From Marinobacter sp. C7 (GTDB lineage: Bacteria > Pseudomonadota > Gammaproteobacteria > Pseudomonadales > Oleiphilaceae), in NCBI RefSeq assembly GCF_022343555.1, contig NZ_JAKQZH010000001.1, forward strand, positions 1,532,108 through 1,596,107: a stretch of 64,000 bases of DNA, written 5' to 3'. Position numbers and translations under genes: made by a program. Of the stretch, positions 20,865-51,521 are shown in pieces. Position 1 is the first letter of the stretch. Every line of letters begins with the position of its first letter. The notes beneath the pieces were generated by a model. The model saw nothing but the letters and a program-made list of their open reading frames with translations, searched no databases and was not told the DNA's origin.

Positions 20865-22043
20865 ATGTTGATTGATTTCTTTCTCGAAGTGCGGCGGGCC
20901 AAGGTTCCCGCCAGCCTGCGTGAATTCCTTGACCTGCTGGAGGCCCTGCAGAACCGGCTGGCCTTCGCCGACATGGAGGAGTTCTATTACCTGGCGCGGC
21001 TGTGCCTGGTGAAGGACGAACGCCACTTCGACAAGTTCGATCGAGCCTTCCAGGCGTATTTCGAGGGCATTCAGAACCTGGACGATCTGCTGGAAGCGCT
21101 GATCCCCGATGACTGGCTCCGGGCTGAATTCGAAAAGCACCTCAGTGACGAGGAGAAGGCGCAGATTGACTCACTCGGCGGCCTGGAAGAGCTGATTGAG
21201 ACCTTCAAGAAGCGCATGGAAGAGCAGCAGGAGCGCCACGCCGGTGGTAACAAGTGGATCGGCACCGGTGGCACCTCGCCGTTTGGCGCCAATGGCTATA
21301 ATCCCGAAGGTTTTCGAATCGGCCAGAAGAACGGCCGCCAGGGCAGGGCAGTCAAGGTCTGGGAGAAGCGGGAGTTCAAGGATCTGGACGACAGCATTAC
21401 CCTGGGTATCCGGAACATCAAGGTGGCCCTGCGCCGGTTGCGTAAATTTGCCCGCCAGGGTGCGGCCGACCAGCTGGATATGGATGACACCATTCGCTCC
21501 ACCGCCCGCAATGCCGGCTACCTGGATCTGAAAATGGTCCCGGAACGCCACAATGCGGTGAAAGTGCTGATCTTCTTCGATGTGGGTGGTTCCATGGACC
21601 CGCACATCCGGGTGTGTGAGGAGCTTTTCTCCGCTGCACGGCTCGAGTTCAAGCACATGGAATATTTCTACTTCCACAACTTCATCTACGAGAACGTGTG
21701 GAAGAACAATGTTCGGCGCATGAATGAGACCACCAGTACCTGGGACATCCTGCACAAGTATACGCCCGACTACAAAGTGATCTTTGTCGGCGATGCCACC
21801 ATGGCGCCTTATGAAATCTCCCACCCCGGTGGTTCCATCGAACACTGGAACGAAGAGGCGGGCGCTACCTGGTTTCAGCGTGTCACTGACCACTTCCGTA
21901 AAGTGGTCTGGCTCAACCCGCTCCCGGAAAGTTATTGGGGTACGGGCGGTTCCCTGGGCATGACCCGGCAGTTGGTGAACGATCACATGTATCCGCTGAC
22001 CATCGACGGCCTTGAGTCGGCGATGAGGCAGCTGAGTAAGTGA
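20865..22043 (+). CDS. VWA-domain protein, CoxE-like partner of MoxR
   Basis: 392 residues from ATG 20865, a start supported by the family-like beginning MLIDFFLEVRRAKVPASLREFL. The C-terminal VWA domain has a modified MIDAS motif DVGGSMDPHIRV (DxGxS, about residue 237) and the distal Asp in VIFVGDATMAPYE. A Gly/Gln-rich hinge lies at about 118-165. The stop codon TGA is itself part of a repeat element that starts at 22040, so the last codon of this gene may have been set by insertion of the repeat. Confidence 0.88.
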   Translation: MLIDFFLEVRRAKVPASLREFLDLLEALQNRLAFADMEEFYYLARLCLVKDERHFDKFDRAFQAYFEGIQNLDDLLEALIPDDWLRAEFEKHLSDEEKAQIDSLGGLEELIETFKKRMEEQQERHAGGNKWIGTGGTSPFGANGYNPEGFRIGQKNGRQGRAVKVWEKREFKDLDDSITLGIRNIKVALRRLRKFARQGAADQLDMDDTIRSTARNAGYLDLKMVPERHNAVKVLIFFDVGGSMDPHIRVCEELFSAARLEFKHMEYFYFHNFIYENVWKNNVRRMNETTSTWDILHKYTPDYKVIFVGDATMAPYEISHPGGSIEHWNEEAGATWFQRVTDHFRKVVWLNPLPESYWGTGGSLGMTRQLVNDHMYPLTIDGLESAMRQLSK

Positions 22044-22077
22044 AAATGGGGTCAGATGAAAGCGTTCATCTGACCCC
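22040..22077 (+). repeat. 30-nt palindromic repeat with GTGAAAAT flank, copy 1
   Basis: Flank GTGAAAAT (22040-22047), then arms GGGGTCAGATGAA (22048-22060) and TTCATCTGACCCC (22065-22077) around a 4-nt loop AGCG; 13 perfect pairs. The TGA of the flank (22041-22043) is the stop codon of the VWA gene. Same element as at 29685, 29748, 29799, 51420 and 51484. A degenerate arm on the other strand (GGGGTCAGGTGG) lies at about 22091-22102. Confidence 0.9.
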
Positions 22078-27757: not shown

Positions 27758-28414
27758 ATGCTGGAAACCATCGTTCGTTTTTTTCAGGAAGGCGGCCCCT
27801 TCATGTACCCGATTGCAGTGGTGCTTGCACTCGGGCTGGCGATTACCCTGGAACGCTTCATCTTCCTGGCATCGGTCGGGCGCAAGAACCGAGTCACCTT
27901 TGAAAGAGCCATCCTGCCACTATTGCAGAAAAGGGATTACCAGAGAGCGATGAAAGCCGCCAGCCATTCCAATAGTGCGATCGGCTCAATCATGGGAGCA
28001 GGCCTGGGTCGCCTGGTCAGCAACAGCCGCCGTGAGGATATCGAATACGCTATGGAAGAGGGACTGATGGAAGTCCTGCCGAGGCTGGAAAAACGTACTC
28101 AATACCTCGCCACCCTGGCCAATATTGCGACCCTCCTGGGACTTCTGGGAACGATTATCGGTCTGATCTCCGCATTCACTGCAGTTGCCGCAGCGGACCC
28201 TGCACAGAAGGCGAGTCTGCTCTCCGAGAGTATCTCCGTTGCGATGAATACCACGGCATTCGGGCTGATGTCGGCCATTCCACTGCTGATGTTTCACGCG
28301 CTGTTACAGACCCGCACCAACGAAATTGTAGACAGCTTTGAGATGGCGGGCGTCAAGCTGCTTAACCTCGTTTCCGAGCCGACACCTTCACGTGCGAGCG
28401 GCGCTGTGGCATGA
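27758..28414 (+). CDS. MotA/TolQ/ExbB family proton-channel protein
   Basis: 218 residues. Three membrane helices typical of TolQ/ExbB: residues about 14-33 (MYPIAVVLALGLAITLERFI), about 120-145 (IATLLGLLGTIIGLISAFTAV) and about 160-185. The conserved signature LATLANIATLLGLLGTIIGL and the small-residue-rich third helix (TTAFGLMSAIPLLMFHALL) are present. It forms the pentameric stator ring that uses the proton gradient with ExbD/TolR partners, two of which follow directly. Equivalent in type to AglR of Myxococcus. Confidence 0.92.
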   Translation: MLETIVRFFQEGGPFMYPIAVVLALGLAITLERFIFLASVGRKNRVTFERAILPLLQKRDYQRAMKAASHSNSAIGSIMGAGLGRLVSNSRREDIEYAMEEGLMEVLPRLEKRTQYLATLANIATLLGLLGTIIGLISAFTAVAAADPAQKASLLSESISVAMNTTAFGLMSAIPLLMFHALLQTRTNEIVDSFEMAGVKLLNLVSEPTPSRASGAVA

Positions 28415-28457
28415 CGCCGGAAGCCCGGCCAAAACGGTATTGCGGAGAGAACCGACC

Positions 28458-28988
28458 ATGAGACGCCGACATCGCCGAATTATGAATTCTCCGGAACTCG
28501 ACATTACCGCATTCCTGAACCTGATGATTGTGCTTGTCCCGGTACTTCTGCTCGGGATGGTGTTCAGTCAGGTGCGAATGATCGAGCTGAACTTTCCGGG
28601 TGTGCAAGAGGGCGAGATCCTCGAACCTGACCAGTTCAACCTGGTGGTAACCCTGATTCCCGATGGCATTGAAGTGTCCGATTCCGGACGTGGCATGCTC
28701 CGGGTCCTGCCCGCAACCGATGGCAAGCAGGATTTCGAAAACCTGAGGAGCCTGCTCCGGGGGATAAAATCCCGGGTGCCGGACAAGACCGATGTCGTTC
28801 TGGAAGTGGGCCCCGAGATTGATTACCAGACTCTGGTCACCACCATGGACACGGTCCGTTCCTATCCGGCGGTGGTCGCCGCCAGCCTCGTGGACGGTGA
28901 ACTGTTTCCGGACATTTCCCTGATGGATGCGCCCGAGGACCGTGTGCTGGCTGATCGGGCGGAACCGACCGCGGGGGAGGGCGCATGA
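28458..28988 (+). CDS. ExbD/TolR-family biopolymer transport protein 1
   Basis: 176 residues from ATG 28458 (MRRRHRRIMNSPELDITAFL). A single N-terminal membrane helix (LDITAFLNLMIVLVPVLLLGM) carries the essential proton-binding Asp at about residue 15. The periplasmic part (residues about 40-176) has the ExbD/TolR fold with a VLEVGPEIDYQTLVTTMD segment like the usual 'aD...y..vv.vmd'. It pairs with the TolQ-like protein upstream. Overlaps the second ExbD gene by 4 bp. Confidence 0.9.
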   Translation: MRRRHRRIMNSPELDITAFLNLMIVLVPVLLLGMVFSQVRMIELNFPGVQEGEILEPDQFNLVVTLIPDGIEVSDSGRGMLRVLPATDGKQDFENLRSLLRGIKSRVPDKTDVVLEVGPEIDYQTLVTTMDTVRSYPAVVAASLVDGELFPDISLMDAPEDRVLADRAEPTAGEGA

Positions 28989-29473
28989 AAAGCTCCCACC
29001 GTTCCCGTCGCCTCCGCCGTCATTATGGCCGCATGCACAAAACCGGAGGCCTCAACCTGGTATCGCTCATGGATATCTTCACCATCCTGGTTTTCTTCCT
29101 GATGGTGAACTCCTCCGATGTAAAAGTGATGCAGAATTCCACTGATGTACCGCTTCCGGTCTCCACCGCCGAGCAACAGGCGGTGGAGAACCTGACGGTG
29201 CAGGTCAGCGGTCGGTCCATCCTGTTGCAGGGTCGGGAAGTGGCGAGACTGGATGGCATCGAGACGGGGGACATTCACATCTCCGGTTTGTCAGAAGAGC
29301 TGGCCTATCGACGTGAACGTTTGCAGGAAATTCCGGAACAGGGCCTGCCGATCACCATTATGGCTGCCCGGGATACCGACTATCGCCTGCTGCGTCGGAT
29401 CATGCAGACCTGTGTTGACCAGCAGTTCCGCCAGGTCAGGCTGGCAGTAGAACCGGAGGTTCGCAATGGCTGA
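28985..29473 (+). CDS. ExbD/TolR-family biopolymer transport protein 2
   Basis: 162 residues. Basic N-terminus, then the membrane helix LNLVSLMDIFTILVFFLMVN with the proton-path Asp at about residue 30, then a periplasmic domain ending in MAARDTDYRLLRRIMQTCVD. Two non-identical ExbD proteins with one TolQ is the arrangement of AglR-AglQ-AglS in Myxococcus and differs from the simple Tol and Exb systems. Overlaps the TonB-like gene by 8 bp. Confidence 0.9.
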   Translation: MKSSHRSRRLRRHYGRMHKTGGLNLVSLMDIFTILVFFLMVNSSDVKVMQNSTDVPLPVSTAEQQAVENLTVQVSGRSILLQGREVARLDGIETGDIHISGLSEELAYRRERLQEIPEQGLPITIMAARDTDYRLLRRIMQTCVDQQFRQVRLAVEPEVRNG

Positions 29474-30479
29474 TACCGCATTGCTTCAGGATTGGCATAC
29501 TCCGCGCCTGCCTTGGTCGAGGGTGCCCGGTGAGCGGGGACGGTTTGCGGGCATTCTGGCGCTGACGTTGCTGGTGTTTCTGCCGCCGGCGGTGCTGATT
29601 CCGTCCGTGGTTCTTCCGGAGTGGGACAGGGCGGAGGTGGAGGAAGTGCCTGCGCATCTTGCCAGGTTGGTTGAGGCGCCGGAGGTGAAGCAGGGGTCAG
29701 AAGAAGGCATTCTTCTGACCCCGGGGGCATCCCCTGAGGCTGCCGATGTGAAAAAGGCGCCAGATGAACAAGTTCATCAGACCCCGAGTGCGTTGCCCAA
29801 GAAAAAGGGGGCAGATGAAAGTCTTCATCCGACCCCGACTTCACCGTCCCCCTCTGGTTCCCCGGCAGGGCAAACCGTCGAACAGGCCCGCGAGACGGCG
29901 TCCCGCTCGGGCCTGCTGGCCATGAAGGACCGGCTGGCGTCACTCCGGGAGTCCCCGTCGGAGCAGGTTTCGTCTATCGCGGCGAACGTCAGAACTGAAT
30001 CCGGATCAAAGCCGGCTGAGCCCGACCGCACGGAAGTTCTCAAGGGCAGTGGGGGCGTCAGCAATGCTCAGGATCCGGTGGCCGAGGTGGCAATGGCGGG
30101 TCATGAGGTCAAAAAGGTCGAACGCAAACCCGAGCCGGCGGCACAAACCTTGGCAAGGGGGGAGCCACCCTCTCCGAAGTCGTCCGCGGGCGAGCGGGCC
30201 ATGAGCAATATCCGCAAGGTGTTTGATGTCCAGAAGACTGCGCTTTATTCCCTCTACAAGCGCGAGTTGCGACAGGACCCTACGCTGGCCGGCAAGATCT
30301 TGCTGGAGTTGGTCATCGAGCCGGACGGAACGGTGTCGGCCTGCGAGGTGGTGAGTTCGGAGCTGAAGAACCCGGCCCTCGAGCAGCGTATTGCCATGCG
30401 CGTACGCATGTTCAACTTTGGCGCTGACAGTGTCGAAAGGCGAAAGGTGCGGTTTCCGGTGGATTTCCTGCCGGGCTGA
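29466..30479 (+). CDS. TonB-like protein with AgmX/PglI-type C-terminal domain
   Basis: 337 residues. One membrane helix (about residues 27-49, FAGILALTLLVFLPPAVLIP) after a short cytosolic tail, a long disordered periplasmic linker (about 50-235), and a TonB-like C-terminal domain: VQKTALYSLYKRELRQDP, LAGKILLELVIEPDGTVSAC, NPALEQRIAMRVRMFNFG. This last pattern is that of AgmX/PglI proteins. Linker residues 74-86, 95-107 and 112-124 are encoded by three in-frame copies of the palindromic repeat and read VKQGSEEGILLTP, VKKAPDEQVHQTP and KKKGADESLHPTP. It should transmit TolQR motion to the outer membrane. Last gene of the operon. Confidence 0.83.
   Translation: MADTALLQDWHTPRLPWSRVPGERGRFAGILALTLLVFLPPAVLIPSVVLPEWDRAEVEEVPAHLARLVEAPEVKQGSEEGILLTPGASPEAADVKKAPDEQVHQTPSALPKKKGADESLHPTPTSPSPSGSPAGQTVEQARETASRSGLLAMKDRLASLRESPSEQVSSIAANVRTESGSKPAEPDRTEVLKGSGGVSNAQDPVAEVAMAGHEVKKVERKPEPAAQTLARGEPPSPKSSAGERAMSNIRKVFDVQKTALYSLYKRELRQDPTLAGKILLELVIEPDGTVSACEVVSSELKNPALEQRIAMRVRMFNFGADSVERRKVRFPVDFLPG
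29685..29722 (+). repeat. Palindromic repeat inside coding sequence, copy 2
   Basis: Flank GTGAAGCA (29685-29692), arms GGGGTCAGAAGAA and TTCTTCTGACCCC (29693-29722) with loop GGCA; 13 perfect pairs. Lies in frame within the TonB-like gene. Confidence 0.9.
29748..29785 (+). repeat. Palindromic repeat inside coding sequence, copy 3 (degenerate)
   Basis: Flank GTGAAAAA (29748-29755), arms GGCGCCAGATGAA and TTCATCAGACCCC (29756-29785). Three substitutions from the consensus arms break some pairs. It starts 63 bp after copy 2, so it keeps the same reading frame. Confidence 0.85.
29799..29836 (+). repeat. Palindromic repeat inside coding sequence, copy 4 (degenerate)
   Basis: Flank AAGAAAAA (29799-29806), arms GGGGGCAGATGAA and TTCATCCGACCCC (29807-29836), one substitution per arm. 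It starts 51 bp after copy 3, again a multiple of three. Confidence 0.85.
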
Positions 30480-51419: not shown

Positions 51420-51457
51420 GGGGTCAGAAGAACGCTTTCTTCTGACCCCATCTTCAC
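51420..51457 (-). repeat. Palindromic repeat, copy 5
   Basis: Minus-strand reading: flank GTGAAGAT (51457-51450), then arms GGGGTCAGAAGAA and TTCTTCTGACCCC (51449-51420) around AGCG; 13 perfect pairs. It lies 23 bp after the thrH stop and could act as a shared 3' element of thrH and pabB. Confidence 0.9.
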
Positions 51458-51483: not shown

Positions 51484-51521
51484 GGGGTCAGATGAAAGCT
51501 TTCATCTGACCCCAATTTCAC
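51484..51521 (-). repeat. Palindromic repeat, copy 6
   Basis: Minus-strand reading: flank GTGAAATT (51521-51514), arms GGGGTCAGATGAA and TTCATCTGACCCC (51513-51484) around AGCT, so the whole 30 nt is a perfect palindrome. TGA of the flank is the pabB stop codon. Head-to-tail with copy 5, 64 bp apart. Confidence 0.9.

Follow-up and report, generated by a model that had tools for sequence, protein, structure and literature searches.

The window, a 64-kb stretch of the genome of Marinobacter sp. C7 (G000; other G numbers denote relatives in the genus), carries an operon that runs from an ExbB-like proton channel gene through two ExbD-like genes to a gene for a TonB-like protein (Table 1). This last protein has one membrane helix, a disordered linker and a TonB/AgmX-PglI-type C-terminal domain; the domain and the ExbB/ExbD partners mark it as a TonB-like energy transducer (NF033768, PF01618, PF02472). 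The model for the AgmX/PglI-type tail, NF033768, scored above its cut-off, TIGR01352 fell below its own, and there was no Pfam match at 0.001. An AlphaFold model built on 29 sequences has a membrane-type helix at residues 23-47, pLDDT below 50 at 73-110 and 112-131, and confident structure over most of 241-337; its top PDB matches were the C-terminal domains of TonB, HasB and TolA (E 4e-3 and weaker), with none at 0.001.

Three in-frame copies of a 30-bp palindrome lie inside the 337-codon ORF, all within the low-confidence stretch of the model, that is, in the linker. Against the consensus GGGGTCAGANGAA-N4-TTCNTCTGACCCC they have 0, 3 and 2 mismatches in order; they start 63 and 51 bp apart and encode VKQGSEEGILLTP, VKKAPDEQVHQTP and KKKGADESLHPTP. 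A first reading of this DNA, made from the sequence alone (the sequence-only reading), had described three palindromic repeats in frame in a TonB-like linker, and their positions, spacing and peptides are all confirmed. At up to three mismatches the 64-kb window contains six matches to the palindrome, and 100 dinucleotide shuffles contain none. Chance similarity in a low-complexity linker is rejected by these shuffles and by reversed-pattern controls (0 matches); since one in-gene copy has all 13 pairs intact and the same family occurs elsewhere, we regard it as vanishingly improbable.

The sequence-only reading had placed the array at 29685-29836; its start, at a GTGAA head, stands, and its end moves outward to a TTCAC head (Table 1). 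It had also given the in-gene copies the flank-plus-palindrome layout of intergenic copies. Those copies are real, with palindromes from 22048, 51420 and 51484, but the in-gene array is laid out as a mosaic, each end carrying an outward head, and not as a series in one orientation; copies of both orientations occur. Its description of a first copy that keeps all 13 arm pairs and two decayed ones agrees with our counts of 13, 10 and 11 of 13, but its use of decay to time successive insertions, and with it the order of insertion, is not supported: 14 of the 18 in-gene copies found across six species are exact, and decay is thus seen chiefly in the second and third copies of G000.

In an RNA fold of 29676-29850 both heads and the outer arms pair (z -4.7; 0 of 200 shuffles as stable). 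A REPIN consists of two REPs in opposite orientation that form one hairpin, whereas this array has three copies. The array is a mosaic, BIME- or REPIN-like, that was probably inherited and reshuffled.

Table 1. Genes of the TonB-like operon and repeat copies, in window coordinates
Feature	Position	Strand	Details
ExbB/TolQ-like proton channel gene, upstream in operon	27758..28414	+	Pfam PF01618 MotA_ExbB, E 3.2e-30
ExbD/TolR-like gene 1	28437..28988	+	Pfam PF02472, E 8.9e-11; mechanical ORF start listed at 28338
ExbD/TolR-like gene 2	28985..29473	+	Pfam PF02472, E 8.6e-16
TonB-like protein gene	29466..30479	+	337 aa; last of ExbB-ExbD-ExbD-TonB-like operon; NCBIfam NF033768, E 2.5e-16
Whole in-gene REP array	29685..29844	+	outward heads GTGAA (29685-29689) and TTCAC (29840-29844)
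REP copy 1, symmetric type	29693..29722	+	codes GSEEGILLTP; 0 mismatches; 13/13 arm pairs
REP copy 2, nearest F type	29756..29785	+	codes APDEQVHQTP; 10/13 pairs; two amino-acid-changing departures
REP copy 3, TTCAC head after	29807..29836	+	codes GADESLHPTP; 11/13 pairs; two amino-acid-changing departures; type unsure because base 24 is changed
Intergenic REP with GTGAAAAT head	22040..22077 (palindrome from 22048)	+	same family
Intergenic REP, first of pair	51420..51449		same family
Intergenic REP, second of pair	51484..51513		same family; followed by TTTCAC

The repeat family and a RAYT-type transposase

With 217 exact symmetric and 101 exact asymmetric copies in G000, the palindrome has the size and copy number of a REP (20-60 bp, more than 100 copies per genome). 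The asymmetric forms have a direction: F is GGGGTCAGAWGAA-N4-TTCWTCAGACCCC and R is its reverse complement. Among sampled G000 copies, TGAA stands to the left of F in 8 of 33 cases and of R in 0 of 31, and TTCA to the right of R in 9 of 31 and of F in 2 of 33, a weak version of the conserved head that gives REPs their direction, most F and R copies having no head. The head is GTGAA, and the terminal tag of the GTAG/CGTC super-family is absent. Sampled copies stand in arrays of one to five; two variable (W) positions pair with each other in 247 of 249 copies, and 212 of 249 have no mismatch, in a sample that leans to exact copies and includes the three in-gene ones.

Symmetric copies are about twice as numerous as asymmetric ones in G000, and five relatives show the reverse (asymmetric/symmetric exact copies: G002 229/99, G039 248/114, G078 161/63, G079 221/135, G103 104/56), as if the G000 family had been homogenised toward perfect palindromes.

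The sample comprised 95 G000 arrays on contig C25, up to about 1.99 Mb, taken around exact symmetric copies, the RAYT gene and the window; neighbours within the sampled stretches were counted too, and arrays of F and R copies only, like the other G000 contigs, fall largely outside it. By a test that asks for one open frame over 50 codons on each side and for a codon score, 94 of the 95 arrays are not mid-gene (seven pass the open-frame part and one passes the codon score on both sides). The family is in this sample mostly extragenic, and the many unrelated target genes of an RPE-like element are not seen, with 1 of 95 arrays mid-gene. Some arrays yield short 5' or 3' extensions or antisense frames, and 16 picked stretches with repeats in open frames (5 from G000 and 11 from G002, G039, G078 and G079, of which one, L121, also belongs to the 95) gave no second clear mid-gene case.

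A Y1_Tnp domain (PF01797) scored above cut-off in five of the six genomes of the REP-rich clade described below and in none of six others, a test set that left out the genomes with 58-72 REPs. In G000, G039, G078 and G079 a RAYT-type gene sits among REPs at one conserved locus, with the same neighbours in translation, which we take to be dehydrogenase-like and H-NS-like genes. As expected of RAYT-associated REPs, copies flank the Y1 gene on both sides (L061, L092, L093, L094). The two flanking REPs of such systems are in inverted orientation; here several copies of differing orientation surround the gene. The RAYT translations contain an H-V-H stretch. REPs are densest near this gene, with 100 of the 249 sampled C25 copies in 1.0-1.2 Mb and the gene at 1.160 Mb, a crowding like that in the three marine gammaproteobacteria treated in the consulted parts of PMC2817692.

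The only Y1_Tnp/RAYT gene found in G000 (L061, C25:1160480-1160809, minus strand) contains one internal stop codon; G039, G078 and G079 hold open copies at the same locus. No Y1_Tnp was detected in G103 (88% complete), and because of this and of the stop in G000, present RAYT activity can at most be presumed. Nor was a Y1_Tnp found in G109 (16 REPs) or in G019 and G001 (4 REPs each), a minor argument against close coupling of REPs and RAYT. G002 carries a second, different Y1_Tnp gene (L095, G002:C7:16253-16582), with no REP of the window's family at up to four mismatches within 3.3 kb around it.

Distribution across the genus

At least one REP copy, at one mismatch or fewer, is present in 25 of 120 genus genomes, and the reversed-pattern control gave 0 in every genome. 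At this threshold counts are 348 in G000, 341 in G002, 375 in G039, 233 in G078, 372 in G079 and 172 in G103; the next are 72 and 58. Orthologues of the TonB-like protein were sought in the same 120 genomes: 20 gave no protein match, and of the 100 matched, 90 were read, the other ten being nine with weak or partial best matches and G050.

All six orthologues from the REP-rich clade have REP-coded linker motifs (2, 2, 3, 3, 4 and 4), and none of the 84 outside it does, either in the protein or in a six-frame translation of those loci. Among these 84 are the orthologues of six REP-bearing genomes (G065, G067, G085, G076, G090 and G109, with 16-72 REPs). In-frame insertion beside orthologues without it, as in RPE-like elements, is thereby found in 6 of 6 against 0 of 84. 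The sequence-only reading had proposed aligning orthologues from related genomes and had named the same peptides in genomes that lack the repeat as a refuting result; the 84 others do not contain them, and on this point the reading is not refuted. A linker-plus-flank query of 124 genus genomes returned repeats in the TonB-like gene of the same six only (E up to 1e-6). A tree was built on the post-linker part of the 72 proteins, out of 90, whose boundary was recognised; in it the six REP-carrying proteins form one clade with support 100/98.

We considered whether the REP family was born from a repeat in the TonB-like linker and then spread outward, a direction that would fit with 14 of 18 coding copies being complete, exact elements. 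Genomes outside the clade, however, hold up to 72 REPs with none in the TonB-like gene where it was read, and sampled REPs in G000 crowd near RAYT, making an origin in the linker very improbable.

In G078 the TonB-like gene is split between contigs at the repeats (L036, C159; further repeat pieces on C49), probably an assembly break; since the contig ends within the gene, its motif count of 2 is a minimum.

Within the clade the linkers are 64-101 residues long (five of six measured) against 56-78, median 67.5, outside it (62 of 84 measured), and Glu and Pro make up 25-30% of them against 33-62%. F and R copies adjoin in the TonB-like genes of G039, G103, G002, G079 and G078. Half-elements, EVEQTP in G002 and G103 and EVHLTP in G103, look like deletion products. 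Five of the six species share both the junction sequence (A/V)PE ahead of the array and a spacer resembling (S/P/T)PE(V/A/I)(A/V)D. This junction and the shared spacer suit one reshuffled array (G078 being cut by its contig end) and speak against repeated independent insertions into the same linker, species by species, in place of one ancestral insertion. Loops and copy numbers do differ between species, as repeated insertion would have it, and the exactness of in-gene copies (14 of 18) is nearly that of the sampled G000 copies (212 of 249, in a sample that leans to exact ones); we hold independent insertion to be doubtful. The loop CAAG/CTTG occurs in 11 of 18 in-gene copies. A shared rare loop as proof of internal duplication is weakened by its being a regular sub-family in the clade, with 10, 28, 28, 19, 16 and 9 exact copies, in-gene ones included, in G000, G002, G039, G078, G079 and G103.

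Reading frame, silent sites and the origin of the array

All 18 in-gene copies across the six species are read in one phase, and all 12 spacings between them (42, 51, 63, 69 and 81) are multiples of three, against 30 of 152 spacings in other sampled G000 arrays, indicating that frame has been kept by selection on the gene; the corresponding probability, (30/152)^12 = 3.5e-9, is overstated since the in-gene copies are related. Read in codons from base 2 (GGG TCN GAN GAA ... NTT CNT CNG ACC CC), the element has no stop in any of its six forms, and this is the only phase of which that is true, each of the others being stopped in some form. R copies and symmetric copies with W=T have stops in both other phases and F copies have fewer (none in F with W=A); in every one of the six gene arrays the forms present jointly stop both. 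R being the reverse complement of F, the phase is stop-free in either orientation as long as the loop adds no stop. The TGA of the GTGAA flank falls outside the frame used, as the sequence-only reading had noted along with the absence of stops from that frame; the TGAs within the element do so too. Frame choice as a sign of selection on the peptide is rejected, stop avoidance being sufficient.

Copies in both orientations read GS(D/E)E..(H/L)(L/Q)TP, where Q marks F and L marks R. All 18 in-gene copies combine D with H or E with L, the trace in the protein of base pairing at the two W positions.

Outside the loop and the W positions, the exact in-gene copies (14 of 18) match the REP consensus letter for letter. 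The six departures from it are all nonsynonymous; with an opportunity of nonsynonymous to synonymous change of 45:14 (F) or 45:17 (R), six against none is not significant alone. Six third positions, a mixture of twofold and fourfold sites, are identical in all 18 copies (108/108). At two plain fourfold sites, GGG and ACC, cross-species identity within the copies is 266/266, against 978/1437 at fourfold sites elsewhere in the gene (55-82% between pairs of the same species), a contrast to which we attach no probability because pairs of copies are not independent. Ascertainment at the DNA level is not a likely cause, since the copies counted (18) equal the number of protein motifs. Codon usage here makes GGG (19%), TCA (10%) and TCT (9%) minor codons and ACC (57%) a major one.

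This invariance leaves two readings: copies that are young or have been renewed from the pool, or a hairpin under selection. No other observation here speaks as strongly against a simple frozen ancestral insertion. For the linker peptide there is no sign of selection on residues, only on frame, the departures being too few for significance. The proposal in the sequence-only reading, that an extragenic palindrome was recruited as protein linker, accordingly survives in part: the palindrome belongs to a genome-wide REP family and is absent from the 84 other orthologues, but recruitment of the peptide is not borne out, with six nonsynonymous and no synonymous departures.

Were the peptide GSDExxHLTP, left by an old insertion, to act in the periplasm through binding or stiffness, with its residues selected, presence in frame in all six clade orthologues would be expected and is found. 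Each of the six consensus departures, however, changes a residue and none is silent, which, though not significant, points away from residue selection, and minor codons such as GGG stay fixed; exaptation of the peptide is in our judgement quite unlikely. Selection on a hairpin in mRNA or DNA (for translation pausing, mRNA stability or protein binding), with the peptide as by-product, would agree with third positions kept in 108 of 108 cases, W pairs in 18 of 18, and the stable array fold (z -4.7). Yet two of the three G000 copies have three and two broken arm pairs, and REPs fold anywhere, so a stable fold says nothing about a role at this site; this explanation, too, we think unlikely.

Taken with the distribution, these observations lead us to propose that the REP family very probably put a mosaic into the disordered periplasmic linker in the clade ancestor, followed by frame-keeping reshuffling and renewal from REPs. 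The proposal builds directly on the REP family, its RAYT neighbourhood, the restriction of coding copies to one clade and their common frame. A RAYT-type Y1 transposase would have mobilised the family, and a REP mosaic would have entered the disordered linker of the TonB-like protein in the ancestor of one genus clade. The insertion was presumably tolerated, given one phase that is stop-free in every form and a linker that accepts changes of length; since the element is palindromic, its two orientations would encode polar peptides that are almost alike. The array may then have grown, shrunk and been shuffled in steps that keep the frame (two to four copies are seen), and it seems to replace much of the Glu/Pro-rich linker of other orthologues. 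Copies would stay near-perfect through renewal from the genomic REP pool, or through exchange with it or among themselves, and not through conservation of the peptide. The evidence for renewal is the silent-site invariance, and hairpin selection would look alike. Neither an insertion event nor an empty site was seen within the six-member clade, and linkers outside it are too divergent to mark the exact junction of the array. Tentatively, the linker codons might even remain members of the genomic REP pool through gene conversion or re-insertion, so that the DNA element and not the peptide would be the conserved unit and the linker would evolve in concert with non-coding repeats.

Relation to known coding repeats

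Intragenic REPs of the GTAG/CGTC type have been studied before, reportedly by Di Nocera and colleagues. The accessible portions of PMC3733652 describe REP units that are single, paired or clustered inside ORFs, with clusters that code for 43-82 residues (Thauera, R. conorii), and name flexible linkers and loops as sites where insertions may be neutral. The kind of insertion reported here is in that sense already known, because REPs in ORFs, clusters up to 82 residues and linkers as neutral sites are all found in that source. The Marinobacter array shares with those REPs the coding units and clusters inside ORFs, and differs in its GTGAA head, its presence in one gene of six species and its invariant silent sites; neither TonB nor Marinobacter appears in the main text of PMC3733652. 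What marks the present case among insertions of a known kind is that the repeats have kept nearly every letter as the rest of the gene drifts.

The comparison with Rickettsia palindromic elements drawn in the sequence-only reading is supported, alongside the other intragenic REPs of PMC3733652, where, in the portions consulted, some Rickettsia RPEs are equated with REPs. RPEs too are palindromic repeats in frame in coding genes, as far as the excerpts of PMC3733652 and PMC2635572 go, but they occur in many different genes, whereas the Marinobacter REPs are mid-gene in one gene of the sample (1 of 95 arrays) and have a RAYT among the copies. REPIN/RAYT systems, in the sections consulted of PMC3116915 and PMC2817692, likewise consist of short palindromes in hundreds of copies, with opposite doublets and a Y1 transposase gene among them; most of their elements lie outside genes (in SBW25, 14 16-mers overlap genes, PMC3116915), and those sections describe no coding array common to orthologues. 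PARCELs are similarly protein repeats coded by dyad-symmetric DNA, many of them in membrane-targeted proteins, but their unit, according to the part of PMC2996958 seen, is amphipathic, 25 residues long and sporadic across distant clades, whereas the Marinobacter unit has 10-13 residues and is found in one clade and one gene. GGGGTCAGA was not found in the literature searched, titles and abstract openings on Marinobacter and RAYT gave nothing on a coding REP array, and either may have been published elsewhere; an orthologue series with a coding REP array that turns over between species, or a silent-site comparison, was likewise not met in the portions of the literature searched.

The genus offers a comparative series for a mobile palindrome turned coding, with six species that have it and 84 without, and a simple reason why it can code, namely a phase that none of its forms stops, whichever way the element lies. 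The series makes it possible to ask whether coding and non-coding REPs convert one another, and how much sequence freedom a spanning linker has in an ExbBD-TonB-like machine. If the linker codons do belong to the REP pool, a mobile repeat family would have supplied a structural part of a protein and would keep rewriting it.

A REP also meets a reading frame elsewhere in the window: the GTGAA head (22040-22047) of the first intergenic REP provides the TGA stop (22041-22043) of the preceding 416-codon ORF, which fits the passages of PMC3733652 in which GTAG termini are said to supply stops.
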